From NCBI GenBank assembly GCA_008690995.1, contig VRMN01000005.1, positions 744,001 to 808,000 on the forward strand: a stretch of DNA of 64,000 bases, written 5' to 3'. Below the pieces are notes generated by a model. The model made no database searches and had not been told where the DNA came from. It saw only the letters and a list, made by a program, of their open reading frames with translations. This DNA comes from Porphyridium purpureum (lineage: Eukaryota > Rhodophyta > Bangiophyceae > Porphyridiales > Porphyridiaceae). Of the stretch, positions 4,299 to 63,966 are shown piece after piece. Positions within the stretch are counted from its first letter, which is position 1. The number at the start of each line of letters is the position of its first letter. The translations under genes were made by a program, and so were the position numbers.

Positions 4299-6139
4299 GT
4301 ATTGGGAAACTGCACAGACCTGGGTCGCGAGACCTACCGACGGAGTCGCCATAGATCCGCGGGATGCTATCTGTGCGAGGCAGGTTTGACCAGGTGGGCA
4401 GAACATAAAACGAAAGACGAGCATATTTATTTGAGAAAACTTGCCCTGGGTCAAAGCTTAAATCATCAAGGAACATTAGAAGCCCTCGGCTCTGGCTCCG
4501 GGTAATGGCCACGCAGCAGCACCCACTTTCCTATTGAATCTCGAGAAACCACTTTGCCGGCACGCGAAGGACAAAGAAGGCACCCGCACATAAAGAGTAT
4601 GACAAAGAGAGGGAGATCAAGAATGGGGGTGCTCACACAGTGTGAGCATACAAACACGCAAAATCAGGCAGCGTACCAAACTTACGATGATCACAAACAA
4701 TGGTACGATCAAAATGCGAGCTTTAGCGATATCCGCATACTCACTCCCAACCATGTTACGGCACAAAAACAAAAAAAAAAAGAAAAAGAACAGCAGCAAG
4801 CATAGAGTTGATTGGCAGACCGACGGAATCGCTCGATCGCTCGATCTGCATTATCGGGGAGTTTTCTTTTTTCCTTTCCTGAAGAGCGACGATTTTCTCC
4901 AGCCGAAAGAAGGAACCAAAGCATAAAACGAGCGAAAAATTAACCCGCGCGCAGTGCGCAGGTGGACGAGCCTCTTACGTGGGCATCATGGCCGGTGTTC
5001 CTTAGTAAAAAGCAAAAGAACAATTCATGCCAAGCTACCCGGGCCGCCCCAAGTTGATAGTATTGTTACCAAGCCCTTCATCTTCCTCTTCGCCCACGCC
5101 AGCACCGCGCCCACGCTTTATATATCTCGGGATCTTCATATAAGAATAGTGTCGGTTTACTATGCTGCTGAAAGTACAGCAGCGCGTGCGCCGCCGCACT
5201 GGTTTGAACAAGTTCACTCACTGTACACTATCGGACAATATGGTGGTTTTTTAACAACGTTTTAACGGTATTTAAATCATTTTTAAGACGGGTTTTTAAT
5301 CATTTGCCGCGAAGTGTGCGGGATGTGTGAACATGCGCGCGCGCGGGGTGTGTGGGCTGTCTGGCATAGAGTCGCGTGTGTCTGGAACGTGAACGGCAGA
5401 GAAGACTGGACAGACGGCCCTGTGCAACGTGCCGGTCACGACGCGCCCCTGCTTTTTCTCGCATTGCGCTTGCTCCACAGGTGACGGACCGGAGAGCAGT
5501 GTCTGGCAATCGACGCACACGAATGAACGAATGAACGAATGAGCGCTTGAACTGATGAACTCATGAACGCGCGTCCGTATTGGTGAGCAATGCGTTCTGG
5601 CAGCCCCTCCTATCGTAGCCGATGGCGCTGGTAAAGTGGCGGACTGTGCGCTGATTGGCAAAGAAAAGGTCCTGACCACGAGATTCGGTCCAGGGCCGTC
5701 TGCATCAACTGTGTCCTCGCCTGAATACCGCATGCCGGTGGGAATGGATAACAGGAAGCAGGAAAGACCAAAAAATATTCAAGGAATGAAAGAGCATCGA
5801 AGAGAGAATCCCAAACGTAGTCCAAGCCGAGCGACTGGACTCTTTTGACGGTGCCTTCCAATTGAGTCATGTTTGTTGGCTCTGAGTTGCGGTCGTCGTT
5901 TCAGTGTTCAAAGGGGTTCGGAGCGTGAAGAAGGCTGGTGGCGTGAATGACGGATCATTTATTCGATCCCTCTTTATCACAACTTGTCATCCTGCACTAG
6001 CTCTCCTGAACGAAATGAATAATCGGCACGTAGCTTGGAAAGTAATCGAACGCACTTGCGATCATCGCTCCAAAACTGTCCAAAAACTTGCGTGTCTACC
6101 TTGCCACCAAACGTTTGGTCGCATGCGCGATGACCGTAT
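4299..6139. other. Long gene-free stretch between convergent genes
   Basis: I find no convincing protein here; the open frames are short, mutually overlapping and low in complexity. Contents: an A-rich run at about 4768-4790; a TATA-like stretch near 5116-5123 followed by GTACAG at 5174-5179 and ACTGTAC at 5220-5226; AT-rich sequence at 5240-5300; and an 8-bp GAATGAAC-type tandem repeat at about 5520-5542. Because both flanking genes point into this region, promoter-like elements here are unexpected. They may mark a non-coding transcript or a gene I cannot recognise. Confidence 0.5.
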
Positions 6140-6847
6140 TCACACCGTTCTCTTTGCAGCTTTCGGGCCATTAGACATGGTGTTTCCGTTGGAGACCCCG
6201 CCAAAGATTCCCTTTGTATCTGCGTCCGCGCGGGACAGAAAGTGAGGCCTACCATCGTACACCTTGTACCGGCCGGGGTAACCGATTATATAATTTTGCT
6301 CATTGTTCGAATCCCACACCTCGCCGCCATTGTTGAACGCGAACTCGAGGGATGCCGCCTCGGTTTGAAAGAAGAATTCACCGGTCGGCAACTTTTCCAG
6401 CGGCGTGCCTGGCGCATCAATGAATGGCCCGGCGTTCTTCGAGTACACCATGCAACAGCTCTGCCAAAGATCGGCGCTAAACAGTACCTCGATGTACCTG
6501 TCGTTTGCGACGGAAAGCGCGCGCTCGCACTCCTGGCCGTCCGCGTCGCCGACGTACTTGAGCGCGCCGCCGTTCTGCACCACAAAGCGGCCCCCGGGGA
6601 TGTCTACACGAAAGTTCTGGCCCCAGCAATCCTCGACGCGCTTGTTGTTCTTGAGCCCATTTGTGAGGAAGAACGTGATACTGCCGACGTACAGGCGGGC
6701 GACTCTGAATCCCTTGCGAATGTGGCCCGCATCGACCATGCGCACCTCCTTCCACTCGTCGGACCCGCGCTCCTTGTACACCAACACGGCGCGCTTCCAC
6801 GTCTCGTTGCTGTAGAACACCTCGATCCACCCCTTCCCCGCGGCCAT
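6140..6847 (-). CDS. Tandem CBM25/CBM53-like starch-binding protein
   Basis: The 235-residue protein has two successive modules, about residues 6-100 and 117-200. Each begins with an aromatic strand followed by a Trp (WIEVFYSNETW and YIEVLFSADLW) and ends with an FxFxNG-type strand and a WD/W-G-Q-N-like loop. The second module, with EFAFNNGGEVWDSNN then Y-x-I-x-x-x-G-x-Y-x-V, is a clear CBM25/53 signature. Known: such modules bind alpha-glucans (starch, glycogen). No catalytic domain, signal peptide or membrane helix is seen, so I infer a cytosolic glucan-binding or scaffold protein, which fits a cytosolic storage glucan such as floridean starch. The ATG at 6847 starts just before module 1; an upstream in-frame ATG (6913) adds an Arg/Lys-rich leader. 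It is divergent from the FAD protein. Confidence 0.75.
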   Translation of the reverse strand: MAAGKGWIEVFYSNETWKRAVLVYKERGSDEWKEVRMVDAGHIRKGFRVARLYVGSITFFLTNGLKNNKRVEDCWGQNFRVDIPGGRFVVQNGGALKYVGDADGQECERALSVANDRYIEVLFSADLWQSCCMVYSKNAGPFIDAPGTPLEKLPTGEFFFQTEAASLEFAFNNGGEVWDSNNEQNYIIGYPGRYKVYDGRPHFLSRADADTKGIFGGVSNGNTMSNGPKAAKRTV

Positions 6848-7601
6848 GATCCACCACTGGCGCCGTACCACACCACGCGCCCCTTTCTGCTTCGCCGCCC
6901 TTTCCCCACACACGCGAATCGCCGCGTCACGCTCTCTACCGCGTCACCCCCGCGCTCTCTCAGTACCTCCCCTTCTCCTCCAGCCCACACACACACACGC
7001 TCACGCCGTCCCCGCTGCTGCCAACGCGCATATGCACTTCCTCCTGCGTGGTGTCTCTGCGCACGTATGAACCAGCCACATTCGCGTCTCCACGTCTCCT
7101 CCGCGTCCTGCCTTACCCGGTTCTCCCTTCTCCCCTCCGCCCCGACCATCTGGTCCACACGCTTCTCGCCTTGGCGGCTTGGGTGGTGGTGCGCGGGGCT
7201 GGCTCGATCTCGCCTTCCCAGTCCGCCACGCGCTGCGGCGCACACAGATGAGGGAAAAAGACAACCGACTCAACGCACGCACGCACTGAACACCTTCCGC
7301 CCAACACCGCGCTGTACACCCGCCCACAATCCCCACTCACCCGCGTGCTCGATCGCGCGCCGCGATGCGTGGCTCACGCGGCAGCGCGCGCCGCTCCGAG
7401 CTTGCCGCAGTGCATGGCCATCTCGCACGCGGTACAGCGGAAGTACACTGAAGTACAGCGGGTACATGATGTGTACAGCGTGTACAGTGTGGTTGCCATG
7501 TGGATCGCGCGCCCGTTGGAGCTGCGGTAGAGTGCAATGGCTGTGCTGGGGAGAGGCAGAGAAGGAGAGAGAAGGATCGCGAGTGTGGATTTGTGTGTGA
7601 G
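6848..7601. promoter_or_regulatory. Divergent promoter region, starch-binding protein / FAD protein
   Basis: This 754-bp region lies between two divergent start codons. It is pyrimidine-rich on the + strand near the minus-strand gene, with a short CA repeat at about 6987-6998. Its most notable part is a cluster of GTAC-core sites at 7432-7488, listed separately. I see no convincing gene. Confidence 0.55.
7432..7488. promoter_or_regulatory. Cluster of six GTACA-type sites
   Basis: GTACAG at 7432, GTACAC at 7443, GTACAG at 7453, GTACAT at 7462, GTACAG at 7473 and GTACAGT at 7482 lie within 57 bp, spaced 9-11 bp apart, about one helical turn. They end 114 bp upstream of the ATG at 7602. The same core recurs upstream of other genes in the window. 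Regulatory function is inferred from clustering and position only. Confidence 0.5.
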
Positions 7602-9432
7602 ATGAAGGTGTGTGTGGTGGGCGGGGGCGTGACCGGCTGTGCGGTCGCGTACCAGATCCGCAAGCTGGCGCGCCAGCGCGAGCAGGACGACGCCGCAAGT
7701 GCGAAGAAAACGGCGCGGCCAGCGCCGCACCGCCCGCCGCCGCCGGCGACGCGCCGCCGCGCACAGCCCGCAGACGGCGCTCGCGTACCAGCAGATCGAA
7801 GTCGTGCTCATGGACGAAAAGGGAAACCTCGGCGGCTCCAAATTCGACAGCGTCGTCGTTCCTGAAGCGCGTCAGGCGGTGGCCGAGCTGGGAAGGACCA
7901 CGAATATCAATTTTGAGTTGCCCTACACCAAGGAGGTGCTCAAGGACTTCAAAGAATGCGAGCCGTACCTTGAGATGAGCTACGGATTGCACGGCAAAGC
8001 CATCCGATCCTTTGGGGCGTACGACTATCGAAAGATGTACTACTCCAGCGAGTACGCCGCATCGCCTCTGCTTGAAAAGATTCCGTACACCTTTCTTTCC
8101 ACCACCTGGATCGGCTCGATTTTGTGGCGTCTCACTGCGCTCGGTACCGTCATCGCCCTAGCTTATGCCGCCCAGGAATATGAGGATCTGTGGGTTTTCG
8201 TCCTGTGCGTGTATGGCGCGTGCCTTCTCCTCGTGAACGCAGTCGTTGGGCCAAACATATTCTGGAACGTTTTGCAGCGCACTTATTCCACAATGGCGTG
8301 GAACTTGACAACGCGTATGGCCTACGGAGCGGCTCCGAGAAAAGTGTCTGCCGAGCTTGACGAGTTTGACGAAAGCTTGTTTCTGTTGCACGTGAACACG
8401 ATCGATGTGCGCTGCCCCACGCTGTCTAAGCTTTTGGCGCGTGGCCGAATGCTCGCAACCCTGGCGATGCGATCTGCTGCAGATTACTTTGAGAATACAG
8501 CGAAAGTTGGGCCGCCCTACTTGGAGGCCATTGCGAATCCAGCCATCGGGCGCGAGTACGGAAGCACAGTTCTGGACTATCGGGTGTTCAACGCGCTGGC
8601 AGCAAAAGCTGCTATGACGCGTCTGGACCCTGTTGCGAGCAGAAATTCGGTTGGGCGGCTCAGGCACGGCCTAAGTCACTTGTGCGTCAGTATGGCAAAG
8701 AGCGCCGATAGCGTGCTGTTAAATCACATCGTTACGCAGGTACGGTTCGACCCTACGATCGGGCAGTACAACGTTACTTTCATCAATGACAAGGGCCGCA
8801 CCTGCGAAGAAACCTTTGACGCGGTAGTTCTGGCGGCGTGCGTCAATCTTGACGAAGTCGAGGTCTCCTGCTTGGACATTTCCGCAAAGGCCATGCTTGG
8901 GTACACAGACCGGAGCATTCGCCCATTTGACGCGCAGCTGACGGACCCCGCGAAAACAAACAAGGATCTTGCGGTGCCACACTCGTACGCCGCAGTCGTG
9001 AGAGGCCGTCTGAACCCGCAGTATTTTTCGAAGCGCACCGAAGAAAGCGTGCCTGACGTGCTCATTGTCAAGGACAGCCCTGACGTGTCGTTTGTGAATC
9101 GTATCGCAGACGGAGTATACGAAATCGTCGTGTCAAGTGAGCCTCGGTTCGATAGCGCGCTCCTGTCCAAGATATTTACGGAGATCACAAGCGTCATCTA
9201 CCGCGAAAGGAAGCGGCCAACATTTACACATGGTCTGATCCCGGGCGCGAACGATCCAGGACTGCCCTCGTTCATCGTTGGTGAGCGTCTGATCAACGCA
9301 TGTGCAACGCGTCGCCTCGCCTCGGATGTCGAGTTTGATCTGATGGGTGCAAGATGCGCCGCTTCGTTTATTGTGTACGATGACAAGGTTTGGAAAAACG
9401 CGCTAAGTAAGGGCCCAGAGAGCGTCGAGTAA
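7602..9432 (+). CDS. FAD-dependent oxidoreductase, prenylcysteine-oxidase-like, with a frame change near its 5' end
   Basis: The first frame from ATG 7602 encodes a Rossmann FAD-binding start (KVCVVGGGVTGCAVAYQIRK). From about 7780 the following strand and glycine pair (VVLMDEKGNLGGSKF) continue in the next frame, which then runs unbroken to 9432. Either a short intron or an indel in the GC-rich stretch at 7665-7785 joins them. A GT-AG intron at 7699-7801 (103 nt) would restore the frame, but its splice sites are weak. The rest resembles prenylcysteine oxidases and other flavin amine-oxidase-fold proteins, with a FDAVVLAACV strand typical of FAD closure. About 45 residues that look like two membrane helices are inserted near codon 170 of the long frame (SILWRLTALGTVIALAY and WVFVLCVYGACLLLV), which is unusual. 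Substrate unknown. Confidence 0.6.
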
Positions 9433-9518
9433 GAAAGCAGGTCATGCGACTCTTGCGCGAGCGAATGTAAATGAATCCTTTTTTCGATGTTTCTTTTACC
9501 TGAGAACGTGAGGGGGGT

Positions 9519-18371: not shown

Positions 18372-18422
18372 ACTGTACCGCTTCACTGTACCTTAGGATA
18401 CTGCTGTACTTCGAAGTACAGT
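18372..18422. promoter_or_regulatory. GTAC-core sites with perfect 18-bp palindrome upstream of cysteine synthase
   Basis: ACTGTAC occurs at 18372-18378 and 18385-18391, followed by the perfect palindrome CTGTACTTCGAAGTACAG at 18404-18421, whose right half continues as GTACAGT. The cluster lies 180-230 bp upstream of the minus-strand ATG at 18192. A dimeric transcription-factor site is the simplest reading. It overlaps the end of the decayed GT92 copy, so the relic may have donated or been eroded by this promoter. Confidence 0.55.
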
Positions 18423-30835: not shown

Positions 30836-30856
30836 GTACAGATGTTGCGGTACAGT
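30836..30856. promoter_or_regulatory. Paired GTACAG sites upstream of the small Cys-rich protein
   Basis: GTACAG at 30836-30841 and GTACAGT at 30850-30856 lie 130-150 bp upstream of the ATG at 30987. A TTTTGATATG sequence at 30801-30810 lies a little further up. The same two motifs occur upstream of eS6. Confidence 0.4.
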
Positions 30857-30986: not shown

Positions 30987-31472
30987 ATGGCGGTGGGGCA
31001 GAACGCGGCGAGGGTGATGGATGGAGGCTACGGCATGCACGCAAGCGCGTCGTTCGGCTCGCCGACGCTCGACCAGTTCTGCCTAAACTGCGATCGCGAC
31101 GTCAACGTGGACGGCGAGTCGTGCAACAGCGAGCTCGGCGTCTTCTGCGGCAAGAACTGCTACTGGAGCTTCGCGCTCGACACCGCGAACATGCGCGAGC
31201 GCATTCGCGCGGCCGCAGTCAACAAGAACGCAAACGCAGGGCGGACTGACGCGCGCGCGCCCAGACAGAGCACCCGTGTCACGGGGAAGACAAACGACGC
31301 GTTCCAGAAGCATCCGAGCCAGGACGGAATGCGCCCGCTCACAAAGGAGACAATGGACGAGCATAGTAACGCCATCTACCACTATCAAGCATTTGTTGTG
31401 GGCACCACCACCGCCGCGCCGCAGGCTGAAAAGTCACAAGGCGCGGGAGCCTGGCGGAAGAACAGTCGCTGA
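30987..31472 (+). CDS. Small Cys-rich (zinc-binding-like) protein of unknown function
   Basis: The 161-residue protein has a compact cysteine pattern: Cys32-x2-Cys35 (FCLNCDRDV), Cys46, Cys54 and Cys58 (VFCGKNCYW), which suggests one small zinc ribbon or treble-clef-like unit. The wording 'DQFCLNCDRDV...GVFCGKNCYWSFAL' resembles short fungal and algal proteins with a single N-terminal zinc ribbon. The rest is Arg/Lys/Thr-rich and likely disordered, ending WRKNSR. No further domain is seen. The ATG at 30987 is followed closely by another at 31017, either of which could serve. Upstream in-frame sequence is a translated GA repeat and was excluded. Confidence 0.6.
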   Translation: MAVGQNAARVMDGGYGMHASASFGSPTLDQFCLNCDRDVNVDGESCNSELGVFCGKNCYWSFALDTANMRERIRAAAVNKNANAGRTDARAPRQSTRVTGKTNDAFQKHPSQDGMRPLTKETMDEHSNAIYHYQAFVVGTTTAAPQAEKSQGAGAWRKNSR

Positions 31473-35600: not shown

Positions 35601-36453
35601 TCACGAAAGACGCGTCTGTACTACTCGCGTCATTTGTACCATCACGAGTAGGACTCGGAAGCGTTGTGACACCTCTCCGTAAAAGGAACGCATCCATAAC
35701 ATGAAGGACTAGCGATGATGCATTCCCATCATTTCGATCACTTTTAAACACAGCGAGAGGATCGATCGTGTGTGCATGTTGCGTTGCGAAGCATTTTTGT
35801 ATCTCCGGTTCTGTCCAGAAAGCCTTGAAATCCTTTCGCACTGCTCGCCTTGCCTGCTGCTGTTCTTTCAGAACCAGAAGGGTACCATGCTCATCTCGCA
35901 CAACAGCAGCGGAATCAGTCCGCTCACCCTTCGTCTTTTTCGCCATCTCTTTGAATACGGGACTCTGAGGTTGCGACTTGATTTTTTGGGTGTGCCTTGC
36001 GCCTTTTGCTTTGAATTGCACGCTGCGTTTCGCCACTGGCAATTCAAGCCTTTCCGCTACCCTTTGCGTCGTCGAAGAGGAGGTAGCAGAACCTTCCGGC
36101 GTCAGTCGTTCATATCGTTCATATCGTTTATCTTTCTCATTCCGCGCAGTGACGGAGTTGCGTTCAGCGATCTTTTCGTCAGCGTCATCAGTCTGGTTGT
36201 CAAGCGGTCCTTCGCGCATTCGCTCCTCCGCTTGGTCTGGCGAGCTGATCGGCTCGGACAGCTGCTTCGAATATAGTACGGGAGGCTGCATCAGCGAATT
36301 CAAGACGTCATTTTGAATACGAAACAGGTAGTGGTAATGTTTGAGCAACGCGCCCATGCAAAAGGCAACCAGCATGAGTGTTGCCGCCATCAACAGCCCC
36401 TTTGCCATTCTAGATCGCGGGTTGCGCACGCCCCTTGGCGTTGCACTAGCCAT
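32626..36453 (-). CDS. GT92 (DUF23) glycosyltransferase with two tandem halves
   Basis: The 1275-residue type II membrane protein has a short basic tail, a helix at about residues 19-37, a charged stem to about residue 250, then two homologous halves. Each half has an N-terminal beta-rich unit ending in a C-E-W motif (ALCEWTIDL; LTLCEWDPEMG), followed by a GT92-type domain (LEEWLMFHLNLGYDHIYVYVDG; LPEWLAHHLHIGFNDITIYVDG). In the second half the metal/donor motif DVDEFF is present (Asp1083-Phe1088). In the first the aligned stretch is LSDHTKS (Ser552-Asp553-His554), so that half looks catalytically dead. Known: GT92 enzymes are metal-dependent galactosyl/hexosyltransferases of the Golgi. Inferred role: wall or glycoprotein glycan synthesis. 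It is intact, while two sister copies in this window are decayed. Confidence 0.85.
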   Translation of the reverse strand: MASATPRGVRNPRSRMAKGLLMAATLMLVAFCMGALLKHYHYLFRIQNDVLNSLMQPPVLYSKQLSEPISSPDQAEERMREGPLDNQTDDADEKIAERNSVTARNEKDKRYERYERLTPEGSATSSSTTQRVAERLELPVAKRSVQFKAKGARHTQKIKSQPQSPVFKEMAKKTKGERTDSAAVVRDEHGTLLVLKEQQQARRAVRKDFKAFWTEPEIQKCFATQHAHTIDPLAVFKSDRNDGNASSLVLHVMDAFLLRRGVTTLPSPTRDGTNDASSTDASFVRVLPRLLVRYSWSHESGARSGSGTKGLPIVLTVKAEVDRIREVPCTARVEEANNAGSEGLPEREVLLMYDCDPFEVKRTSDEDLNTRIHALVHLDWTAATGDTELSLDVVQAPVLRIALCEWTIDLMLPLKKGRAFALATIVTAEPSAAISQSNSATAFDALTDWPGWYLEEWLMFHLNLGYDHIYVYVDGTCARLERTLQPRVDVEDVIRILVAQGNISCVSLRSPVDPAASVPLLNVAVQAAHIDRLNPFFDYMTFLPPDRFLALSDHTKSVGNVSVLAAFVTENERKIARKNVQALCCGIKLSSVILRPDRELLIRSPLFVELFTQKRVLPGGQVEMEKSQQDLVLFRPDSVLHPTLFHMSTDPKALFVRSCDFNAWPHTEAFVGVYSKWDEARTDSESVALGWDSWKSSAAQMREQVTEHHRIDMNLLHARFMGMNVDIRHPNPFLNRWEQCPNGQVFEQSFIRVPFDASWTTKQRCSNAGDFVHMNPVVEWGVGNSTRQMFLLDAYLVRVQDGKQRSGWDTEEEEKMVDDAEFSAHLLFKHRGPFHQSPLSWLNHGLPFELRLGPDNSEKVVACRLDPLPFSYSGEADTFPETWYGYHCDSFVLSSMGSDAKAGKIARVSVSMHASTEEKMRRLESGVKVSRSNELTLCEWDPEMGIGAPQGPPKDHGFALVTMIKPDHSTKRSMYQPSSLERLPEWLAHHLHIGFNDITIYVDGNATDAALVTSYLAKFVDTGRLRIVRTFRNRVLMEKPKPWMRLIPPIPDEIDRMWDHQRTVFSAHVDRYAKHHELMLISDVDEFFYVKVKPVGAVTFQEQEAGVQLPSNESTSAMRIYWESWKSMLRERGRKLGACQLRTAWWYHEIDEYSSNVTETSIPKEQIYLVTEQYKFRRMRPVSGARGESKGLFVANESTFYTNQHGVYKFQRRFCVNAKAMSSFSCMAYLGHYRYAKSLSDDPLEPHEKPDIVRDIRSTLQQINSGTFAASTRDK

Positions 36454-36719
36454 GTCTTCTTGTTTTCATCAGCCACCCGCGCTGCCGGCACATATGAACT
36501 GTAGCTGCGTTGTGCAAGTCAGTGCAGCAATATCGATTCTCTCTCTCACCGCCCCCTGACACCTCGATCACCTCCAGCTGTTCCTGACCTGTCGTTGAGA
36601 AGAAGTATTCGTGAGTACAGTCCAAGTGCCCGATCATTTGTCCAGAGCAGCGCGGAAGAGCGCAACGTGCAAGTTTTGCGTGCATGTGCCACGCCTGGCA
36701 AGCGCGTGTCTTCAGCAAA

Positions 36720-38787: not shown

Positions 38788-40434
38788 TTACGACATGTTG
38801 TCGAAGTCGATGTTTCCTCCCCCCAGACCGTTACCCTGGACGCCAAACGTGAATTGATTACCATCCGCTTGCGGAACCACGCCATTGACTTGCTCCTCGT
38901 CGTCTTGGAAAAAGGCCTCGATGATCTTGACTGCCTTCTCGTAAATATCCGGATTCGAGTGCAATTGTAGACCTTCAATCTTATCCACTCCACCGCACTG
39001 CTCCACGAGGGTGCAAAATTCGTTCGTCAGGCCGTTGTGAGCCTCGCGCTCCTTCTCACCCACTCGCAAAATGTTTTCAATGCCTTCAAGAGCAACCTGA
39101 ACGATGCGGGCCTCGGCAACGTCGAGCTGGGCACACAGTGGCGGGATGGCGCCGCACTGTACCAAGTAGATCACTTGCTGGCTCGTCCCTCCAGAGGTCG
39201 CATTCGAGACGGCCCAGGTGGCTTCCTTGCGGATGTCAAACTCGGCCACTGAAAGCAAGTTGATCAACTTGGGCATAATATTTGCGTCGATTACTGATTG
39301 GATTTGCTCCCGGTTACCCGCTGTAACGTTGCTGATTGTCCAGCACGCTTCTTTTCGAATACTCTTCTTGGCCGAGTCCAGTCGCTCTGAAAGCGGCAGC
39401 AATGCGCCAGAGTTGATGACATGTTGAGTCTGCTGATCATCTCCTGTGACAATGTTTCCGATTGTGCGCAGCACGGGAGTCTGAATAGATGTCGACGGGC
39501 GACTGAGCAATGCGACCAGTCTGCCCACGACGTTGGCGTCAATCACGGCCTGGATCTTCTCATTCACGCCATCTGACAGATACGACAGCGCCCAGCACGC
39601 GTCCGTCAGAACCTCGTCGTCCTCCATGTAAAGCAACTGCGCCAGTGTGGGCAGGCAGTGCCGGACAATGTTAAAGTCCGGCTGCGGTTTCCCACGGCAC
39701 AGATTCGAAAGAGTCCACGTGGCGTTTCTCAATAGTGAGAGCTTTGCGTGAGGACTCAGCAGGTTTAGCACAGGCTCAAGGCCGCCGTAGCTGATCACAA
39801 GGTCGCGGCACTGCGTAGAGTCCCCGGCAATATTTCCGAGCGCCCAAACAGACTGTTCTCGCACATCCTCATGCGGAGCGGCCAGAAGACGGATGAATAT
39901 GGGAACCGCTCCAGCGTTGATGACCACCTGCGTGTGTTTGGACGTGCCCGACGCAATGTTCGTCAGCGCCCACGCGGCCTCGAACTGAAGGTCCAGTGCG
40001 TGGTCCCAGGTCAGAAACTCTACCAGACGGCGCACGACTCCAGCGTTGATCACCTCGTCAATCGGTGGATTTTGCTCGATCGAGAGCAGCTTGCGAATCT
40101 CCATGGTGTAAGGGTAGTGCTTAGAGGTATCATCCGACAGAATGCCGGCGGCCATTTCGGGCAACCTTTCCAACCCAGCCCGCTGCGCCGCGGAAGATCC
40201 GGCCATTCCGCCCTGCATATTGCTGTCCACGCTCGTCGAGCCCATGTCCAGCTCGCCTCCACCGGGCACCGAGCTGCCCATTTGCTCGCGACGCTTCTTC
40301 ATGATCGACTCTTCCTTCTTCGACTTGCGGATCTCCACCTGGTGCTCCTCGCGCTTTTTGCGCGCCTCATCGACATCAAGCCCCTTCTTGTATGTCTTTT
40401 TCCGGAAATCCTGCCGGACGTTCCGGTACGCCAT
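38788..40434 (-). CDS. Importin subunit alpha (karyopherin alpha)
   Basis: The 548-residue protein has a basic importin-beta-binding domain (about 1-60: YRNVRQDFRKKTYKKGLD, then clustered Arg/Lys) followed by about ten armadillo repeats with the conserved Trp/Asn ladder that binds nuclear localisation signals (WALTNIASG, WALGNIAGDS, WTLSNLCRGK, WALSYLSDG, WTISNVTAG, WAVSNATSGG). The acidic C-terminus with Asp/Asn residues fits the CAS exportin-binding tail. Known: it adapts NLS cargo to importin beta for nuclear import. Length and order match the plant/fungal subfamily. It is intronless. The promoter (40435-41456) is shared head to head with ribosomal protein eS6. Confidence 0.97.
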   Translation of the reverse strand: MAYRNVRQDFRKKTYKKGLDVDEARKKREEHQVEIRKSKKEESIMKKRREQMGSSVPGGGELDMGSTSVDSNMQGGMAGSSAAQRAGLERLPEMAAGILSDDTSKHYPYTMEIRKLLSIEQNPPIDEVINAGVVRRLVEFLTWDHALDLQFEAAWALTNIASGTSKHTQVVINAGAVPIFIRLLAAPHEDVREQSVWALGNIAGDSTQCRDLVISYGGLEPVLNLLSPHAKLSLLRNATWTLSNLCRGKPQPDFNIVRHCLPTLAQLLYMEDDEVLTDACWALSYLSDGVNEKIQAVIDANVVGRLVALLSRPSTSIQTPVLRTIGNIVTGDDQQTQHVINSGALLPLSERLDSAKKSIRKEACWTISNVTAGNREQIQSVIDANIMPKLINLLSVAEFDIRKEATWAVSNATSGGTSQQVIYLVQCGAIPPLCAQLDVAEARIVQVALEGIENILRVGEKEREAHNGLTNEFCTLVEQCGGVDKIEGLQLHSNPDIYEKAVKIIEAFFQDDEEQVNGVVPQADGNQFTFGVQGNGLGGGNIDFDNMS

Positions 40435-41456
40435 GCTGGGCCCACGCGCTTACTCCCTCGCTCGCTCCCCCGACCTGTCTGAATCTCTGTCGCGCTGTGT
40501 TGCCTGCCAGCGCTTCCCCCAGCGTCCACGCTCCAGCCCCGCCGCGGCGCACGCTCCGTCCCAAGCACCACTCCTGGCGCAATCGTGCCTCCCAGCAGTC
40601 CACGCACTATCCTCCACTTCTCCCTTATCCCCCCCCACACGACCTTCGCAGCGCCTGGACGAGCTTGTTCACTCTCTCCTCTTCTCCTCTCTTCTCCCCA
40701 CTTGCCACCACCACCGCCACCACCACCACCCACGTTGACGCGCCTGTCGTCCACCGAAGGGGGGGTACACTCGCGCTCTTATTTTTCATGCCCGATTCTC
40801 TCATTTTCGGCCTGCGCTCCGTTCGGTTCGGCTTGGTTTCTTAGACTGAACGCTGCTTTTCCTTGTGGTGTTGTTGTCATGTTGCGCACGCGATCGTTTT
40901 TATAAGCAGGTGTGGTGGAGCCTATCAAGAAGGTACCAAAACATCACGGAGGTTCACTTGACGCGACTACGATCCATGTACACAACTGTACTTGCGCGAG
41001 GGATTCCTGTAAGTAGAACCCTCGACATAACCGGTGCGAGGAGTTTGGTGAGGGTTTCGCTGCGGCTGCTGGTATGCGACGCGCGGCCGAGGAGCAGGCG
41101 TCATGCCGCATTGCAATGCAATGCGGTGATGAACTGTACCTTGCAATGTGTCGATAAAAAACGCCAGTTTGACATGAAGCGGGGGCCGTCCGCCACAGTG
41201 GTGCGCGTACGGCATGCCGCGGGGGCGCAGCGCGTGCAAGACATATCAAAGTAGGCCGGTTTTGATATGCTTTAACACAAAGGCCTTGTGTTCACGGCGG
41301 GCATGTGGGGAAGAAGAAGAAGAAGAGAAAGTGGGTCGTGGTGGGTGAGAGAAGGGGAAGCGGCGTCGGAGAAAGTGCAGCGGGTGGCGGTCGTGTGAGG
41401 CGTGGGGTATTGGCCTGTGGCGCTTGTGAGGGGCTTCGACTTGAGCGCACATCGAG
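40435..41456. promoter_or_regulatory. Divergent promoter of importin alpha and eS6
   Basis: This 1.0-kb region includes a C-run (about 40630-40637), ACTGTAC at 40985-40991 and 41133-41139, and a perfect 9-bp inverted repeat CATATCAAA / TTTGATATG at 41242-41250 and 41261-41269 (10-bp spacer) about 190 bp upstream of eS6. Just before the eS6 ATG the sequence becomes GA/GT-rich. No gene is recognised. Confidence 0.55.
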
Positions 41457-43702: not shown

Positions 43703-43976
43703 TGTCCGTCCCACACTGCGAGAACGGAACTGTACGCGAAAGCGATGAAAGACAAAAATAAACACACGACCAGCAGAATGCCCAAACACCCAGATACGCG
43801 TCTAAGTAAACGCACGCGCTGGCGTAGTAAATGGAGCTGTCAAAAAACGACGATGAGGATGGGCACGCAGACAGCATAAAACTGTTTGGGAGAGAAGAAG
43901 GCGGAGAGGCAGAAAAGAGGGGGGGGATGAAGGGAGTGGGAACGTGTGTGCTGAGCATTGTGTGAGTGTGAGCACA

Positions 43977-49176: not shown

Positions 49177-49225
49177 GTACAGTCCGACCGCGCACTGTAC
49201 CCACACGTGCGGTGCGAGGTACAGT
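49177..49225. promoter_or_regulatory. GTACAGT/ACTGTAC inverted pair upstream of the gene at 49382
   Basis: GTACAGT at 49177-49183 and ACTGTAC at 49194-49200 form a 7-bp inverted repeat with a 10-bp spacer, followed by another GTACAGT at 49219-49225, about 155-205 bp upstream of the ATG. The arrangement parallels the sites upstream of cysteine synthase and PAN3. Confidence 0.5.
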
Positions 49226-49381
49226 TGCATGATCTCGCCCGAGGTGGCGAGGCCCGGGAGGCGAGTTGCGGCAGAGCGTCAGTGTGACACACAGAAGAGA
49301 GAGAGAGAGACAGAGAGGGACGATCGCGTAGACGTTTGTGCGGGCAAAGAGCAGCAGCGCGGTGTGCGGAGCAAGGGAGCA

Positions 49382-49861
49382 ATGGCGTTTGTGGCGTGTG
49401 GACCGTTGCGTGCGGGCGAGGGCGGTGCGCGGCTCGGCGCGCGCAAGGCGGCGTGCAGCATGCAGCTCGCGCCACCAGGCATCCCGCCGGGCGAGGACGC
49501 GCGCAACAACCAGTCGCTCAGGCAGTACGTGGCCAGGCCGGTCGAGACCTACCAGAAGCGATCGTTCGCCACGCCGCTGCCGCTGACCTGGACGGGCGAG
49601 ACAGAGACCGTGGGCGCGTTCGACGTCGTCGTGCCGCCGCAGGAGAAGGACCTGCCCGTGTCCGGCGAGGCCACCTCGGCGTTCGTCAAGTACTCGGATA
49701 TGGTGCGCGCGGAGAGAAAGGCCGCCCTGCAAGCGCTGCTCAGCGCCTCGGCTGCGGGCGAGGGACGCCCGACCTGCGGCGCGGAGGGCCGAAAGTTTGT
49801 GTCAAATGCCAACCCGGTTCTCGTCAACGGCGTCAAGTGCGTTGAGTACTGGCGCAAGTAA
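49382..49861 (+). CDS. Unknown protein, 159 residues
   Basis: This protein is not recognised. It begins with a short Ala/Gly/Arg-rich segment, then PPGIPPGEDARNNQSLRQYV and a beta-like TYQKRSFATPLPLTW region, an Ala-rich helix (VRAERKAALQALLSA) and the C-terminus GVKCVEYWRK. There is no signal peptide or membrane helix. The ATG at 49382 follows a GA-rich leader. Codon use matches its neighbours and the frame is open end to end, but overlapping frames are also open in this GC-rich DNA, so certainty is moderate. Confidence 0.5.
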   Translation: MAFVACGPLRAGEGGARLGARKAACSMQLAPPGIPPGEDARNNQSLRQYVARPVETYQKRSFATPLPLTWTGETETVGAFDVVVPPQEKDLPVSGEATSAFVKYSDMVRAERKAALQALLSASAAGEGRPTCGAEGRKFVSNANPVLVNGVKCVEYWRK

Positions 49862-50691: not shown

Positions 50692-51774
50692 TTAATGTTT
50701 ACGCTCCCACCAAAAGCACTGACTCTCCTCTGTGCGCGCAGTCAAGCGCTCGGCGCCGTTTTCAGTCATCAATAGCGTGTGCTCAAACTGCGCGCTGCGC
50801 AAGCCGTCCGTGGTAGTCGCGGTCCACTTGTCCGGCCAGAACATGCTGTCTTTCTTGCCCTCATTGATCATAGGTTCAATGGTGAAAATATGGCCCGGCT
50901 GCATGGTTCCGTTCGGATCCTTGTTCCTATAATGCAAGATGTTAGGTGTTGTATGGAAGACGCTGCCGATGCCGTGGCCGCAAAAGTCACGCACCACCGA
51001 AAAGCCGTGCTTCTCCGCATGATCCTGGATAATACCGCCAATGTCACTGTACGGCATTCCCGGCCGGATGCCTTCAATGGCCATGTCCAGGCACTCGTAG
51101 GTCACCTTGACCAACTGCTTGCCCACCTCGTCCACCGAGTCACCGACCAGAAACATCTCGGACAGGTCACCATGAAAGCCCTTGTAGTAGCACGTGACGT
51201 CGACATTCAGAATATCGCCGTCCTGAAGCACTGTTGAGTCGGGAATACCGTGGCAAATCACCTCATTGATCGAGGTGCACACCGATTTGGGGAATCCGCT
51301 GTAGTTAAGAGGCGACGGGTACGCGCCGAGTCGCAAGGTTTCCTCGTGCACTATGCGATCAATTTCATCTGTCGTGATACCCGGTCGGACCGCCTTGCCC
51401 GCGACGTCCAGCACGTGCCGCGCCACACGCGCAGCTTCGCGCATGCCTTGGATTTCCGCCGCGGATTTAACCTCGATATCCCACGGCACCGCTCGCGGTG
51501 TATGCTTCGGCCGCCCATCCGCAGCATAATCCGGGCGCGCAATCTGCTCGGGCACCTCACGCCGCGGTGACTGCACGCCTGGCTGCAGCTTGCCGGCATA
51601 TCTGAACTTTTTCGTCTTGCCAAATCCCAGCGCCATCGCCAACGCCGGCGCGCACGCCGACGCCGCGGCACTCCGGCACGTCTGCCGCATGTGCACTGCC
51701 ACTACATGGCGGTAAAGCGCGCTCCTTTGCGGAGCCACCGCGCCTGCATTCACACCAAACGCAAAGTCTGCCAT
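50692..51774 (-). CDS. MAP1: Methionine aminopeptidase, type I
   Basis: The enzyme removes the initiator Met from nascent proteins. From the ATG at 51774 the 360-residue chain has a short N-terminal region, a linker (KFRYAGKLQPG, IARPDYA) as in eukaryotic type I enzymes, and a complete pita-bread domain. Metal ligands visible are Asp192 and Asp203 (NVDVTCYYKGFHGDLSE), His267 (CGHGIG), Glu in TIEPM and Glu in QFEHT. The His in VICHGIPD is the usual substrate-binding residue. No C6H2 zinc finger precedes the domain, unlike cytosolic MAP1A of plants and animals, so an organellar or finger-less form is possible. Upstream ATGs (51819, 51885) in the same frame add a hydrophobic leader that could act in targeting. 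Confidence 0.95.
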   Translation of the reverse strand: MADFAFGVNAGAVAPQRSALYRHVVAVHMRQTCRSAAASACAPALAMALGFGKTKKFRYAGKLQPGVQSPRREVPEQIARPDYAADGRPKHTPRAVPWDIEVKSAAEIQGMREAARVARHVLDVAGKAVRPGITTDEIDRIVHEETLRLGAYPSPLNYSGFPKSVCTSINEVICHGIPDSTVLQDGDILNVDVTCYYKGFHGDLSEMFLVGDSVDEVGKQLVKVTYECLDMAIEGIRPGMPYSDIGGIIQDHAEKHGFSVVRDFCGHGIGSVFHTTPNILHYRNKDPNGTMQPGHIFTIEPMINEGKKDSMFWPDKWTATTTDGLRSAQFEHTLLMTENGAERLTARTEESQCFWWERKH

Positions 51775-55259: not shown

Positions 55260-55924
55260 GGCTCAAAGACGAACACACCTGCTTGCTCAACACACCACCA
55301 ATAAGCTGCTCGTCCACGGGCATATGGCCGGTGTTTGACGACATGTGTGCTGCGGAGATGAGAAAGACGGAAAATAGGTCTTGCTTTACCCGTCAATCAG
55401 CGAGATGAAGACATGGAAGGAAGTCTTCGTGGACGTGGTCGCACCGATGTGTGGTGGAGAGAAGGATGTCGACGCATGGTGGACGGGTCGTCATGAATAG
55501 AGGCGAACGTCTGTGGTACAGCCGACAGAGCGAAGAAATTGAGATGCTCATGACGCCACGAGCAGCAAGGCGTCGGCCGAGACCGGCGCAGCGAAGCCAG
55601 CGCAGCGCATTGGCTGAATACAGCCGCCAGATGGCAAGCTCAAAAGTGTTTGGCACGACTTTCCTCGACACACGAACGCTTCGCATCAACCGCCGACGGA
55701 GGAACGATGTACCCACTGTACCCACGTGAAGAAGTACAGCTGACACAGTTGGTTGGCCGTGCGCGGGAGACAGAGCGCGCCGAGGCGACGGCTGTGCGTG
55801 CTTGTCGCGTGCGCGAGCCCATGTTAGAGACGCGTGACGGTGCCTGGCCAGCTGCGCATCGAAAACTGCAGCGTCTGTGCCGCGCGCGCTTGCGTCGCGA
55901 TCGGAAACGGCGCGCACAGGCGTG
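55260..55924. promoter_or_regulatory. Divergent promoter of KsgA-type gene and PAN3
   Basis: This 0.67-kb region contains ACTGTAC at 55715-55721 and GTACAG at 55734-55739, with another GTAC at 55709, about 185-215 bp upstream of the PAN3 ATG at 55925. No gene is recognised. Confidence 0.5.
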
Positions 55925-57739
55925 ATGAATGAGGACGCACGCGGCGGTGAGAGCGCATCGTCAAACTCGCTTCCTCAGCACAGGTCCGCAGCATCGGCGG
56001 CAGGGACCTCGGTGGCTGCGTCCGAGTTTGTGCCCGCCGCCGTAGCAGCGGCAAAGATCTCCCAGCTCAGTGTCAACGCGGCGCCGTTCCAGCACCGGCA
56101 AAACGACGCCAGTGCGAGCCGCGTGGTGCCGGCCTCTGCGCACCAGGCGGCAGGAGCGGCGCCAGAAGCACGCCAGCACACAGGCAGAGATACTAGCGCG
56201 TCGCGTGGCTCTGCGCGGTCCTCTGTGCCGCGTGGAAGAGGCAGAGATGGGAGTTTTCCGGGAGCTCGCCCAGGGTCCAGTTCGCATAGCACTCATGGCC
56301 AACAAAATGCACCGCAGCAAAGCAGACATCATGAACTCCATTATCAACACAAACGCCAGCAAGACTTCTACCATAACTTGGGTCTTCGCAAGGATGCTCG
56401 AAAACGAGCTCAGTTGAAGAGCGAGCTTCCTGGCGGAGTCAGTGCGTCGCACACAACAGGCCCTTCATCTGGAGTGGGGCCCATGGCAACTGAGTTTGTG
56501 AATCAGTACTATGCCATTACAGCACTGGAAAGCAAGACGCTCACCGTGCCGTCATTGGTGGGAAGTCGCACGTGTGTTAACTATCGGGCGCTCAGCGCTA
56601 CCGACGGCGAGCTGTACTTGTTACGCCGTGTGGTGGGCCCAATCAGCACACGCTCGGATTGCATCATCCGCGCGGCTGAGGCGTGGCGTTCACTGCAGCA
56701 TCCAGGCCTTTGCCGGCTCGCCGAAGTCTTCACAACGCGAAGATTTTCGCACGAGGGAACGGTCAACGAAGTCGTGTTTGTGTACGAATTTTATGTGCGT
56801 GCAGCCAGCATAAAATCTGTCTATCTCGACGAACAAACCACTCATCGCGCGACCAGCTCGGGGTACGCGGTACCTGAGAATGCCATTTGGTCGCTGGCGA
56901 CGCAACTGGTTTGTGCGATGCATACAGTGCATCGTCGCCTCCTACACTGTGGTGACGCCATCAACCCTAGCGCAGTGATCATGCACGACCGCAATCGCGT
57001 TCGTATCGGCCAAATTGGAATCCAAGACGCCATGGATACCGATATGCCGTCATCCAGTAGTCCCGAGCACGCGCAATGGCTGCGCGTACGCCAGCATGAG
57101 GACATCCTCAAGCTTGGATTGCTGATTGTAACGATGTGTGCGCGCACCCAGCCCGGGCTGGTTCGTGGCGGCGTGCTCATGGCCTCCGTGGAGCACGTTT
57201 TTGACTTTGTGAAGAAGAGTGGCGTGTACTCGGGCGAGCTGCTAGGTTTCACACGTTCACTAATCGAACCACTGCTTATTGCGCAGGCCGACGTGCGCCT
57301 GCTCAGCATCGAAGTAGACGTGCTACCCCTTTTAGCCTATCGTTTTTCCTTCGAGTTCGCTAATGTATGGAACCACGTCGATCACCTGGAAAAGGGTCTG
57401 ATGGAGGAAGCAGATACTTCGCGGTACTTGCGCCTGCAGACCATGCTGAATTTTTGCATCGATCGCTGCGACCAGGCGCTCGACCCGCTGTGGTCTGAGA
57501 CCGGGCGCCCGCACATTCTGAAGCTTTTCCGTGATTACGCATTCCATACATCCGATGTGGACGGACGGCCCTTGCTCGACTATGCTCATGTGCTCGAATG
57601 CTTGGACCGTCTCGACGCAAGCAGCCACGAGCAAATTGTGCTCACTTCTCACGATGGCGCGACGCTCATCCTCGTAACTTTTGCTGAGATCAGCCAGTGC
57701 TTGGCGGGCGTCATTCGCGAACTCAGTGACCATGTGTGA
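55925..57739 (+). CDS. PAN3: PAN2-PAN3 deadenylation complex subunit PAN3
   Basis: The 604-residue protein has an Ala/Ser/Gln-rich disordered N-terminus (to about 200), a pseudokinase domain (YLLRRVVGP, then AWRSLQHPGLCRLAEVFTTR, VVFVYEFYV, LLHCGDAINPSAVIM), a coiled coil with the SRYLRLQTMLNFCIDR signature, and the C-terminal knob HILKLFRDYAFHTSDVDGR, then LDYAHVLECLDRLD. This order is unique to PAN3. It recruits PAN2 to poly(A)-binding protein for the first phase of mRNA deadenylation. No CCCH zinc finger is seen at the N-terminus, unlike many animal and fungal isoforms. The kinase catalytic triad is absent, as is normal. The ATG at 55877 is an alternative start. Confidence 0.9.
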   Translation: MNEDARGGESASSNSLPQHRSAASAAGTSVAASEFVPAAVAAAKISQLSVNAAPFQHRQNDASASRVVPASAHQAAGAAPEARQHTGRDTSASRGSARSSVPRGRGRDGSFPGARPGSSSHSTHGQQNAPQQSRHHELHYQHKRQQDFYHNLGLRKDARKRAQLKSELPGGVSASHTTGPSSGVGPMATEFVNQYYAITALESKTLTVPSLVGSRTCVNYRALSATDGELYLLRRVVGPISTRSDCIIRAAEAWRSLQHPGLCRLAEVFTTRRFSHEGTVNEVVFVYEFYVRAASIKSVYLDEQTTHRATSSGYAVPENAIWSLATQLVCAMHTVHRRLLHCGDAINPSAVIMHDRNRVRIGQIGIQDAMDTDMPSSSSPEHAQWLRVRQHEDILKLGLLIVTMCARTQPGLVRGGVLMASVEHVFDFVKKSGVYSGELLGFTRSLIEPLLIAQADVRLLSIEVDVLPLLAYRFSFEFANVWNHVDHLEKGLMEEADTSRYLRLQTMLNFCIDRCDQALDPLWSETGRPHILKLFRDYAFHTSDVDGRPLLDYAHVLECLDRLDASSHEQIVLTSHDGATLILVTFAEISQCLAGVIRELSDHV

Positions 57740-58654: not shown

Positions 58655-58683
58655 TCCTTGGTGGAAGCCTCAGTAGCGCGAGC

Positions 58684-59565: not shown

Positions 59566-59793
59566 CAGGCATCGGCTGTCCCTGCATATTGCACAGTGAG
59601 ACCGGCGTCGAAGCGAGTAGGCGCCGGAGGATGTGATCAAGCCTATGTCCATAGAAACAAATGAATTCGCTTGCGAGATTTGCACCAGGAACGCTGGATA
59701 CATCGAGCTCACGACACACAAGCGGTGACTTTACTTCAACTTTAAGTTACGGAACCGACGACGCATGGGTCCCCCGCCCGGTCAGGCCGGGCC

Positions 59794-62700: not shown

Positions 62701-63129
62701 GTACTCCTCGCGCTTTTCCGGCACTGCGAGCCCAATGGTGAGCGAGATGATGGCCGCGACGCACAGGATAAGGACCGTGATGTCATGAAAGGCCTCCCAG
62801 ACGAGCACGAAAAAGTTTTTCGGCGGCGGGTACCGAAACTTGTTTGGCCCAAAGGCGCGGCGGTGCACGTCGAGCTCGTCGTCATTTGTGGTCATGCCCT
62901 TTGTCTTGGACGACTTGAGCGCCGCGAGCAGGCCGTCGACGCCGCCCATTTCGGCGAGCGCCGGCTTGTCGCGCTCCTCGATCATGTTCACGAGCGCCTC
63001 TGCGGACACGCCGAACGTTGCCGCGGCGGCCGGGTCCAGCGGCGGTGGCTCATTCTGCACGCCCTTCTTCAGCGCGGCGTGCGGCTGGTCATCCTCGTCA
63101 TCCTCCTGCTTGCGTCCAAAGCACCCCAT
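59794..63129 (-). CDS. Plasma-membrane-type (P2B) Ca2+-transporting ATPase
   Basis: The pump exports Ca2+ from the cytosol with ATP. The 1111-residue protein has all P-type elements: TGEV actuator motif (AMTGEVVD), PEGLP in helix 4, phosphorylated Asp395 (DKTGTLTQ), KGASE nucleotide site, the MVTGDN and VTGDGTNDAP hinge motifs, and about ten helices. In helix 6 the Ca2+ site residues of type 2B pumps (NMIMD) are seen. The N-terminus MGCFGRK is a typical N-myristoylation (Gly2) plus palmitoylation (Cys3) signal. The C-terminus has a basic amphipathic stretch (RAQRLVKLRVYVHAVAFINV), a candidate calmodulin-binding autoinhibitor as in animal PMCAs rather than the N-terminal one of plant ACAs. Intronless. 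Confidence 0.97.
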   Translation of the reverse strand: MGCFGRKQEDDEDDQPHAALKKGVQNEPPPLDPAAAATFGVSAEALVNMIEERDKPALAEMGGVDGLLAALKSSKTKGMTTNDDELDVHRRAFGPNKFRYPPPKNFFVLVWEAFHDITVLILCVAAIISLTIGLAVPEKREEYGYIEGIAIVAVIAVVVTVQACIDYSKEKKFRQLNSVKDNYDVQVLRNGETLRVSAEEVVVGDIMKITAGDKLAADAVYVDGSNLKTNESAMTGEVVDINKNHEKDPFLLSGTIVSEGVGFVVVIAVGERSQWGIILSQLIVEPEATPLQERLDKLAMQIGWIGIIMATLTFFVSMIRWIVHSADTGNWDGTEVLRFFIDAVTIVVVAIPEGLPLAITLGLAFAMRKMMQDNNLVRRLEACETMGSATQLNADKTGTLTQNRMTVVQAYFGGASFVYKGAGEHIEARAESLGDAALPEAFKQTVALNVAVNSQANLRKQEDGTVEHLGNKTECALLQMVENWSMDYHALREQNPPNRIFLFSSAKKRMSTAIKSGEGVRLHCKGASEIVLRLCSSEMQADGTIRPLPTEEQDKVLAKVEAMASEGLRTLVLCYRDFATGHGIEWESVDDDGYLEQQMTLLGLVGIKDPIRPETRDAVIMLKKAGVTVRMVTGDNPLTAKFIATEAGILDGSEGPEALLEGPVFRKMSDEEKRRVALGIRVLARSSPTDKLLLVRQHKKLGEVVSVTGDGTNDAPALKEADVGFALGLAGTEIAKEACDIVILDDNIQSMAKAVLWGRNVYSSIRKFLQFQLVVNVVAVTLNFISACAGRRLPLGAVPLLWVNMIMDSMGALALATEPPRMSLMDNKPFGRRAPLINRAMFRNIFGVSIFQLTVTLVLMFAGNDIFNLGCFPPEFAPDEEFPCEGSTLKLNSLIFNTFVFMQIFNEINSRRIEERDVFSKILDSKLFCVIIVITILVQVALMLGVGQTRVGQQIGIVTISGAMWGTSIVIGLLALPVGFLVRSIPLDWCAGPLDDDITQMSKFEKFFHFPQRKEPVFEEDEEEEGDDESLMEDTTGARVPLAEVVDASKLASDRAQRLVKLRVYVHAVAFINVVNRAASSKKMIKSVGTEDSEIIPHAPQRVESSTSSDL

Positions 63130-63746
63130 TCCGTCCTCCTCCCTCCGATGCTATGCACGTGCACTCCCACACCAACCCCCTTCCCACACTTGAACACCCC
63201 CACCACGTTCCCGACTCTTTCGCCCTCCCCAAGCTAGCCCACACACGCGTGCTTCAAATACCCGACATGCATGCGCACGCGGCACAAACCACGCGCCAGC
63301 CGCACTTTACACAGCACGGCTTAATGCAACAACTCGCCGCTGCCGGTACGCGACCAGCTCAGGGAACTCTTGTCGCGTCAGTGCGTGCGTGCGAGTGAAT
63401 GGATGGATGGATGGAAGGGTGGGTCAAACCGTCACGTGCCTGTTCCTACAGCAATTCCCCTCAGCACCACCACCGCCATCCGCCAATCCCCATGTCCACT
63501 ATACCCCCCCACCCGTGCCCCTTCTCCCGCGCCTCTATCGCCCTCATAGACTCTCATAACCCCCAATCACCCCCGGAAAAAAAACCCACTAACGCCCAAA
63601 GCGTTTATTTGCTACACACACCCTCTCCCCGTATTCTTCAGTTTCTACCCTCGTCTATCAAACAGCGACTCTTTGAGTGTTTTGCGTGCTTTTGCTTGAA
63701 GCTTCTCCTCGCACGCAACACACACAAAACGCAGGCCGCCACTTTG

Positions 63747-63912
63747 TCATCATCATCATCATTATGAAAATCACGAAAATCACGAAAATCACGAAAATCA
63801 GCGGCATGAAGCTGCTGTTGATGATGATTCCTAGTCCTTGCTGCATATAGAATTTTGCCCTGCTTCCCGCGCTCATCATCATCATTCTCGTTATTTTCGT
63901 TATTTTCGTTGC
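63747..63912. repeat. Paired 9-bp tandem repeats in opposite orientation
   Basis: A TCA microsatellite (about 63747-63761) is followed by four copies of GAAAATCAC (starts 63766, 63775, 63784, 63793). About 95 bp later a second TCA run (about 63873-63885) is followed by the inverted-sense unit GTTATTTTC repeated twice plus a part (about 63889-63912). The two arrays could fold together. Confidence 0.8.
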
Positions 63913-63950
63913 CGTTTCCGTGCACGCGCCAGATCTGCATTACACCGCCA

Positions 63951-63966
63951 CAGTACCCCACTGTAC
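63951..63966. promoter_or_regulatory. CAGTAC / ACTGTAC sites at the window edge
   Basis: CAGTAC at 63951-63956 and ACTGTAC at 63960-63966 match the GTAC-core sites seen upstream of other genes. If the pattern holds, a plus-strand gene may begin about 100-230 bp to the right, beyond the window. Confidence 0.3.

Follow-up and report, generated by a model that had tools for sequence, protein, structure and literature searches.

The heptamer ACTGTAC, counted together with its reverse complement GTACAGT, recurs in the non-coding DNA of a 64-kb stretch of the genome of the red alga Porphyridium purpureum (the window; C13:744001-808000 in an assembly of 22,164,627 bases, or 22.16 Mb, in 46 contigs), where it stands upstream of functionally unrelated genes and is here interpreted as a probable binding site of a transcription factor with a general role at promoters. 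The window holds 18 copies, 15 of them non-coding and three in called coding regions, compared with a mean of 3.03 (standard deviation 1.71, maximum 9) in 100 dinucleotide-preserving shuffles, none of which reached 18. With 6,320 copies in 22.16 Mb the genome as a whole predicts about 18 per 64 kb, and the window is unexceptional in this respect. An initial annotation of the window had counted about 14 copies, and every one of its 14 positions proved exact and non-coding; it had overlooked four more, three of them coding (1240, 39156 and 51046) and one non-coding (36615).

The first non-coding copy (5220..5226, plus strand) lies between convergent called genes, at least 1.5 kb from any called start, and the next one (7482..7488, minus strand) is found in a divergent intergenic region 325 bp before the gene of an FAD protein that is prenylcysteine-lyase-like (ATG 7810). 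A cluster of three sites (18372..18422; 18372 and 18385 on the plus strand, 18416 on the minus strand) precedes by 183-227 bp a minus-strand gene for cysteine synthase of the PALP family (ATG 18192). Single minus-strand sites are located 134 bp upstream of an open reading frame for a Cys-rich protein at 30987 (30850..30856) and 165 bp upstream of a minus-strand glycosyltransferase-family gene with its ATG at 36453 (36615..36621). Two plus-strand sites (40985 and 41133; 40985..41139) share the divergent region between an importin-alpha-like gene, recognized from its translation, and the gene for ribosomal protein S6e (RPS6), at distances of 321 and 469 bp from RPS6, and another plus-strand site (43729..43735) lies 575 bp upstream of a protein kinase gene (ATG 44307). 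A second cluster of three (49177..49225; 49177 on the minus, 49194 on the plus, 49219 on the minus strand) is situated 160-202 bp upstream of the ATG at 49382; here the gene caller preferred an earlier in-frame ATG at 49229, directly behind the last site of the cluster, and the pair 49177/49194 reappears in the genome-wide pair listing as C13:793177-793200. The site at 55715..55721 (plus strand) occupies the divergent region between a dimethyladenosine-transferase-like gene, again read from its translation, and PAN3, 207 bp from the ATG at 55925, and the last one (63960..63966, plus strand) is 834 bp upstream of a minus-strand gene whose translation is Ca-ATPase-like (ATG 63129), the right-hand gene lying outside the window. 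The three coding copies, all on the plus strand, are probably chance occurrences: 1240..1246, which was not counted as an element, 39156..39162 within the importin-alpha-like coding region and 51046..51052 within a coding region whose translation is methionine-aminopeptidase-like, the last being followed by GG, which the consensus described below disfavours. The proposal that the sites cluster about 100-230 bp upstream of ATGs holds for cysteine synthase, the Cys-rich frame, the frame at 49382 and PAN3, and also for the overlooked site at 36615, but not for the FAD protein, for which it had been made as well; the sites of RPS6, the protein kinase and the Ca-ATPase-like gene are likewise farther away than 230 bp. 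By Pfam family the neighbours are mixed (PALP, S6e, PAN3, protein kinase, glycosyltransferase-family, prenylcysteine-lyase-like). As a side observation, the minus strand at 6143-6847 encodes a small protein with a sub-threshold match to the starch-binding family CBM25 (26.7 bits, cut-off 27.3).

How are the sites placed with respect to genes? Positions were analyzed in a 264-kb sample of the 22.16 Mb (C1:1-200000 plus the window), in which 98 genes, 97 of them with an ATG start, were called from open frame and codon usage. Coding DNA (153,684 positions) holds ten of the 67 sites in this sample (0.065 per kb) as compared to a mean of 13.1 for 200 shuffled heptamers, and with a coding density of 0.8 of the shuffled words an effect of coding sequence or codon usage is ruled out. 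In the bins that cover the 400 bp before the ATG the density is 6 to 25 times that of the shuffled heptamers, four sites falling within the first 50 bp, and in the remaining non-coding DNA it is 1.7 times that rate. When the most upstream plausible ATG is taken as reference the maximum, 1.82 and 1.68 per kb, falls at 150-250 bp; overall, sites concentrate at 100-250 bp before the start codon and scatter to about 800 bp. An exact copy is present within 400 bp of 25 of the 97 starts (28 with the most upstream ATG) and within 600 bp of 34 (36 with the most upstream ATG). For the 400-bp distance, up to 60 shuffled heptamers reach 2.7 starts on average and never more than 8 (9 with the most upstream ATG). 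The element thus appears to serve between about one in four and one in three promoters of this alga. The suggestion of the initial annotation that the word could be a widespread promoter element is borne out in this sample by enrichment upstream of starts, relative to shuffled controls, and the absence of enrichment in coding sequence.

A comparison of intergenic regions is nearly independent of the exact starts. Among regions of 20 bp to 2.5 kb, gaps shorter than 20 bp being left out, divergent ones contain 20 sites in 15.4 kb (1.30 per kb; 13 of 20 regions occupied), tandem ones 25 sites in 41.0 kb (0.61 per kb; 14 of 39) and convergent ones 2 sites in 11.0 kb (0.18 per kb; 2 of 23), an order that tracks the number of promoters per region. 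Permutation of the labels between promoter-containing and convergent regions gave p 0.0046, and adding the 11 longer regions (4 of all 24 divergent, 5 of 44 tandem and 2 of 25 convergent regions) keeps the order with 0.87, 0.48 and 0.14 sites per kb, respectively. The strand relative to the gene is even: counting each site once, 15 sites in tandem regions have the same and 13 the opposite orientation, and by the nearest start within 1 kb the numbers are 23 and 25.

De novo ranking in the same sample, a check that the initial annotation had proposed, places ACTGTAC first among heptamers twice, namely when the DNA within 600 bp upstream is compared to the rest (36 upstream, 21 other non-coding, 10 coding) and when promoter-containing intergenic DNA is compared to convergent plus coding DNA (53 versus 13); among octamers AGAGAGAG ranks first and ACTGTACC second in the upstream comparison. 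The heptamer is followed by a base other than G in 51 of 56 distinct non-coding sites and, one position farther on, by a pyrimidine in 48, and because of this flank preference the fuller word is given as ACTGTAC-H-Y. Several variants show an upstream excess over coding DNA per base, ACTGAAC by a factor of 4.7, AGTGTAC of 3.9, GCTGTAC of 2.9, AATGTAC and ACTCTAC of 2.5 each and ACTATAC of 6.0 on very few counts, and no such excess was found in the 264 kb for CCTGTAC, TCTGTAC, ACAGTAC and ACGGTAC. Genome-wide, GCTGTAC co-clusters when placed before ACTGTAC (286 versus 12 for the control), as does ACTGAAC (101 versus 9). A Myb site, AACNG, is not favoured, the base preceding ACTG being A in only 11 of the 56 sites. 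Other words also rank high in the promoter-containing intergenic DNA of the sample: TCTAGAA (22 versus 4), which is heat-shock-element-like, and TAGGGGA (11 versus 0) and AGGGGAC (12 versus 2), which resemble the yeast stress element AGGGG. TATAAAA is enriched there as well (18 versus 4). TATAAA was dropped as a promoter marker since it is denser in convergent than in divergent regions of up to 2.5 kb (0.63 versus 0.33 per kb) and may for this reason mark 3' ends as much as promoters.

In the whole assembly the 6,320 copies (3,181 and 3,139 in the two orientations) compare with 3,088 copies of the control word, the same letters in reversed order. Together with the window shuffles and the shuffled heptamers of the positional analysis, this control rules out chance. 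Clustering far exceeds the plain excess in copy number: counted without repeat masking, direct pairs with a gap of 0-20 bp number 740 versus 7 for the reversed word, convergent pairs 221 versus 1 and divergent pairs 212 versus 3, and direct pairs with gaps of 17-47 bp number 488 versus 5. The initial annotation had described the sites as often arranged in inverted pairs; such pairs exist, but the main form is the direct one, and in place of the ratio of 2:1:1 for direct, convergent and divergent pairs expected with random orientation the observed 740:221:212 indicates a preference for head-to-tail copies.

The spacing within pairs is also uneven. Gaps were listed for the first 100 of the 740 direct, 50 of the 221 convergent and 50 of the 212 divergent pairs, and among these gaps of 0-1 bp are nearly missing. 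Convergent gaps peak at 5-7 bp, are scarce at 8-13 bp (5 of 50) and return at 14-20 bp; divergent gaps peak at 3-6 bp with a thin tail at 13-20 bp; direct gaps peak at 2-7 bp with a shallow rise at 12-16 bp, and no clear third or fourth peak was seen among the 100 longer direct gaps (17-47 bp) listed. For the listed pairs a phase test with a period of 10.5 rejects even gaps (p 0.0004 for direct, 0.0002 for convergent and 0.0022 for divergent pairs), also when repeated copies in long terminal repeats (LTRs) are removed from the convergent set (41 pairs, p 0.0002). Genome-wide, convergent gaps of 8-13 bp account for 32 of 221 pairs (63 if gaps were even over 0-20 bp) and divergent gaps of 7-12 bp for 44 of 212 (61 if even). 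It is chiefly the convergent pairs that allow the preferred gaps to be read as about one and two turns of the helix, because a plain decay with distance would fail the phase test for direct and divergent pairs as well. A minimum distance and uneven spacing are as expected from bound proteins.

Moreover, the word is carried by repeats resembling LTRs. At C1:1068554 and 1074743 two 301-bp stretches, 6,189 bp apart and identical in 300 of 301 positions, hold the pair ACTGTACCCCCGAGGTACAGT, and their opposite strand has TATAAAAA 12 bp after the convergent motif pair. The same convergent pair recurs at C2:35702/41895 (6,193 bp) and C3:156951/163130 (6,179 bp). Motif clusters also occur in a family with a spacing of 5,934 bp (C2:334488/340422, C9:40476/46410 and C12:11250/17184) and in one with a spacing of about 6.4 kb (C2:1251215/1257650, C2:1375474/1381888 and C8:582762/589162). 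In the 5,934-bp family the copy at C2:340422 (cluster L048) lies next to an open frame that matches a chromodomain and, below threshold, an integrase (24.0 bits, cut-off 26.5). These repeats are interpreted as Ty3-type LTR retrotransposons, with LTR promoters that would use the host element; the base-by-base comparison covered one pair.

Which genes carry the sites? Seven of ten dense clusters, hand-picked from listed places on contigs C1 and C2, lie between divergent called genes, one of the seven (L043) with two sites inside the called 5' end of a gene; the other three are found upstream of a single gene, at least 565 bp upstream of a gene read from its translation as replication-factor-C-like and at the end of an LTR-like element. 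Among ten PF00504 matches, 7 strong and 3 weak, representing the light-harvesting complex (LHC), an exact copy stands no farther than about 600 bp from the start in six of the seven strong genes (121 to about 566 bp; one start estimated), and the seventh carries GCTGTAC; in the weak matches the nearest exact copy is about 640 bp away or farther. In a proteasome set of nine genes out of 16 matches, examined in upstream pieces of 750 bp, six have sites (at 227, 146-232, 216, 66 or 138, 227 and 367 bp) and three have none. Since LHC and proteasome genes both carry sites, no single pathway is marked, and highly used genes may be favoured as carriers. In passing, two of the proteasome matches (C34:54967-55491 and C38:30097-30621) have identical scores and open-frame lengths and perhaps belong to a duplicated or haplotype contig. 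Likewise, C1:130072-130800 and 135738-136466 have equal called lengths, 94% identity over 150 bp around the motif and the motif 105 bp upstream in both, a probable gene duplicate.

Enrichment at promoters, the lack of a strand preference, homotypic clusters with a minimum distance, tolerated variants and the presence in LTR-like repeats together point to a DNA-bound protein, and ACTGTAC is probably the double-stranded DNA site of one sequence-specific transcription factor, or of a small family, with a putative general role at promoters. Several copies of the factor may bind side by side, and perhaps cooperatively, at clustered sites. The bound factor could then open chromatin, as the general regulatory factors of yeast do, and help RNA polymerase II to assemble, thereby activating transcription; a general activating promoter factor would be the most economical role. 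The LTR-like repeats probably carry the same sites because the element makes promoters work in this nucleus. It is predicted that a nuclear factor would bind ACTGTACCT but not its mutated form. A more far-reaching proposal is less likely than not: in red algae of this lineage a single lineage-specific factor, perhaps of the C2H2 type, would serve a large share of the promoters, bind homotypic clusters of ACTGTACHY and organize open, often bidirectional promoters, a code that LTR retrotransposons would have adopted. For P. purpureum the census in PMC4827209 gives 199 transcription factors, among them 60 C2H2, 23 two-repeat MYB, 21 bZIP, 9 TALE and 0 SBP proteins. The expansion of C2H2 proteins makes this a natural family in which to look for the binder, nothing more.

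Could the same pattern arise in another way? The sites might mark one large co-expressed programme under a regulator responsive to light, growth or nutrient status. This would agree with the limited share of called starts that carry a site, about a quarter to a third (25 of 97 at up to 400 bp; 36 of 97 at up to 600 bp, by the most upstream ATG), and with the higher shares in the LHC (6 of 7) and proteasome (6 of 9) sets, as might be expected of growth-linked genes. However, the window genes with sites range from cysteine synthase and S6e to PAN3, a protein kinase and a glycosyltransferase, the neighbours of the dense clusters are equally mixed as far as their translations are readable, and LTR-like repeats carry the word too, leaving such a regulon fairly unlikely. 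Less likely still, the word could keep divergent genes apart as a boundary, an insulator or a repressive chromatin element: the density is indeed highest between divergent genes, where seven of the ten hand-picked clusters are located, but tandem regions with a single promoter also carry sites (14 of 39), convergent regions hardly do (2 of 23), and one LTR-like repeat has the word beside a TATA-like box. That transposons scattered a sequence without function of its own is quite improbable. Motif pairs separated by a constant long distance are found in at least three families of LTR-like repeats, yet only 9 of the 67 sites in the 264 kb, compared within that sample, lie in DNA with a similar stretch elsewhere, and gaps and flanks differ in most pairs listed. 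A role in RNA, as an element of the 5' untranslated region or as a splice signal, would explain why sites lie upstream of start codons, four of them within 50 bp, but it is rejected with near certainty because the orientation is even (15 versus 13 in tandem regions, 23 versus 25 by nearest start), and the density maximum between divergent genes argues against it as well.

GTAC is the core bound by SBP-domain factors such as plant SPL proteins and Chlamydomonas CRR1, and in SBP/SPL elements this core is necessary and largely sufficient. GTAC is contained in ACTGTAC, and other TGTAC words are mildly enriched upstream (AGTGTAC 3.9 and AATGTAC 2.5 times coding). The algal element does not behave in this manner, however, as ACTGAAC, which lacks GTAC, co-clusters (101 versus 9) and the GTAC words ACAGTAC, ACGGTAC, CCTGTAC and TCTGTAC are not enriched upstream. 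A profile search with PF03110 found no match in this genome, a weak negative as 14 control genomes were equally empty and no working positive control was at hand. Table 3 of PMC4827209 lists 0 SBP genes in Porphyridium purpureum versus 23 in Chlamydomonas. The census and the empty search support the doubt about an SBP binder that the initial annotation had already voiced, and an SBP site is very improbable, slightly more so than transposon scatter.

Several points weigh against a general promoter factor or narrow what can be claimed for it. No exact copy lies within 400 bp of 72 of the 97 called starts. Position is only loosely fixed: the bins from 401 to 1000 bp still show 9-11 times the shuffled rate, perhaps due in part to miscalled starts, and between 250 and 800 bp the density swings from 0 to 1.4 per kb. 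The gene models and starts are uncurated open-frame calls of our own, and the LHC and proteasome counts are small, chosen post hoc and uncorrected. Orientation within clusters is not random, as direct pairs somewhat outnumber inverted ones (740 versus 433). Spacing carries only modest weight: convergent pairs alone show a distinct trough with a second peak, the trough of the divergent pairs is far shallower in the whole genome (44 of 212) than among the 50 listed pairs (4 of 50), and the best-fitting periods are 12.5-13 for direct, 11.5-12.5 for convergent and at least 14 for divergent pairs and not 10.5. Furthermore, the pair counts for the whole genome are inflated by repeats: two repeat families account for 15 of 100 listed GCTGTAC pairs, and the 9 of 67 sites with a similar stretch elsewhere count here too.

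The initial annotation had suggested that the element could be undescribed, and no description was found among the literature matches listed: those on Porphyridium and red-algal promoters and motifs, judged by titles and abstract starts with few subscription papers among them, contain no genome-wide promoter element for the lineage, and those for ACTGTAC and GTACAGT as whole words are unrelated by title and abstract start. Such a motif is not reported in the accessible parts of PMC6374488 and PMC8966773. Expression work in Porphyridium clones upstream fragments of 500-1500 bp whole, according to PMC10866757. A defined word would offer a handle for purification of the binder, for prediction of promoter strength and for short synthetic Porphyridium promoters, and its presence in LTR-like repeats a way to study how mobile elements adopt the promoter rules of their host. 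It also raises the question whether the red lineage evolved a general promoter factor of its own.

Among known systems, the sites of the yeast general regulatory factors Reb1, Abf1 and Rap1 and the comparable fly promoter motifs of DREF and M1BP come closest. Like these, the algal element is a short defined word that is promoter-proximal and enriched in promoters but not in coding DNA of the 264-kb sample, that occurs in either orientation relative to the gene and that is often found where unrelated genes share a divergent promoter region (13 of 20 divergent regions; mixed Pfam families). Unlike them, it has a different sequence and forms homotypic clusters at many promoters of this alga. With the GTAC-core copper-response elements bound by the SBP factors CRR1 and SPL7 it shares GTAC within the word, but the algal word is longer (R-C-T-G-W-A-C-H-Y), tolerates GAAC and, unlike a copper regulon, has many unrelated neighbour genes. 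The telo-box and site II, the housekeeping promoter words of plants, resemble it in being pervasive near the starts of housekeeping genes and often repeated, and differ from it in their unrelated sequence and in that this alga stands outside the green lineage.

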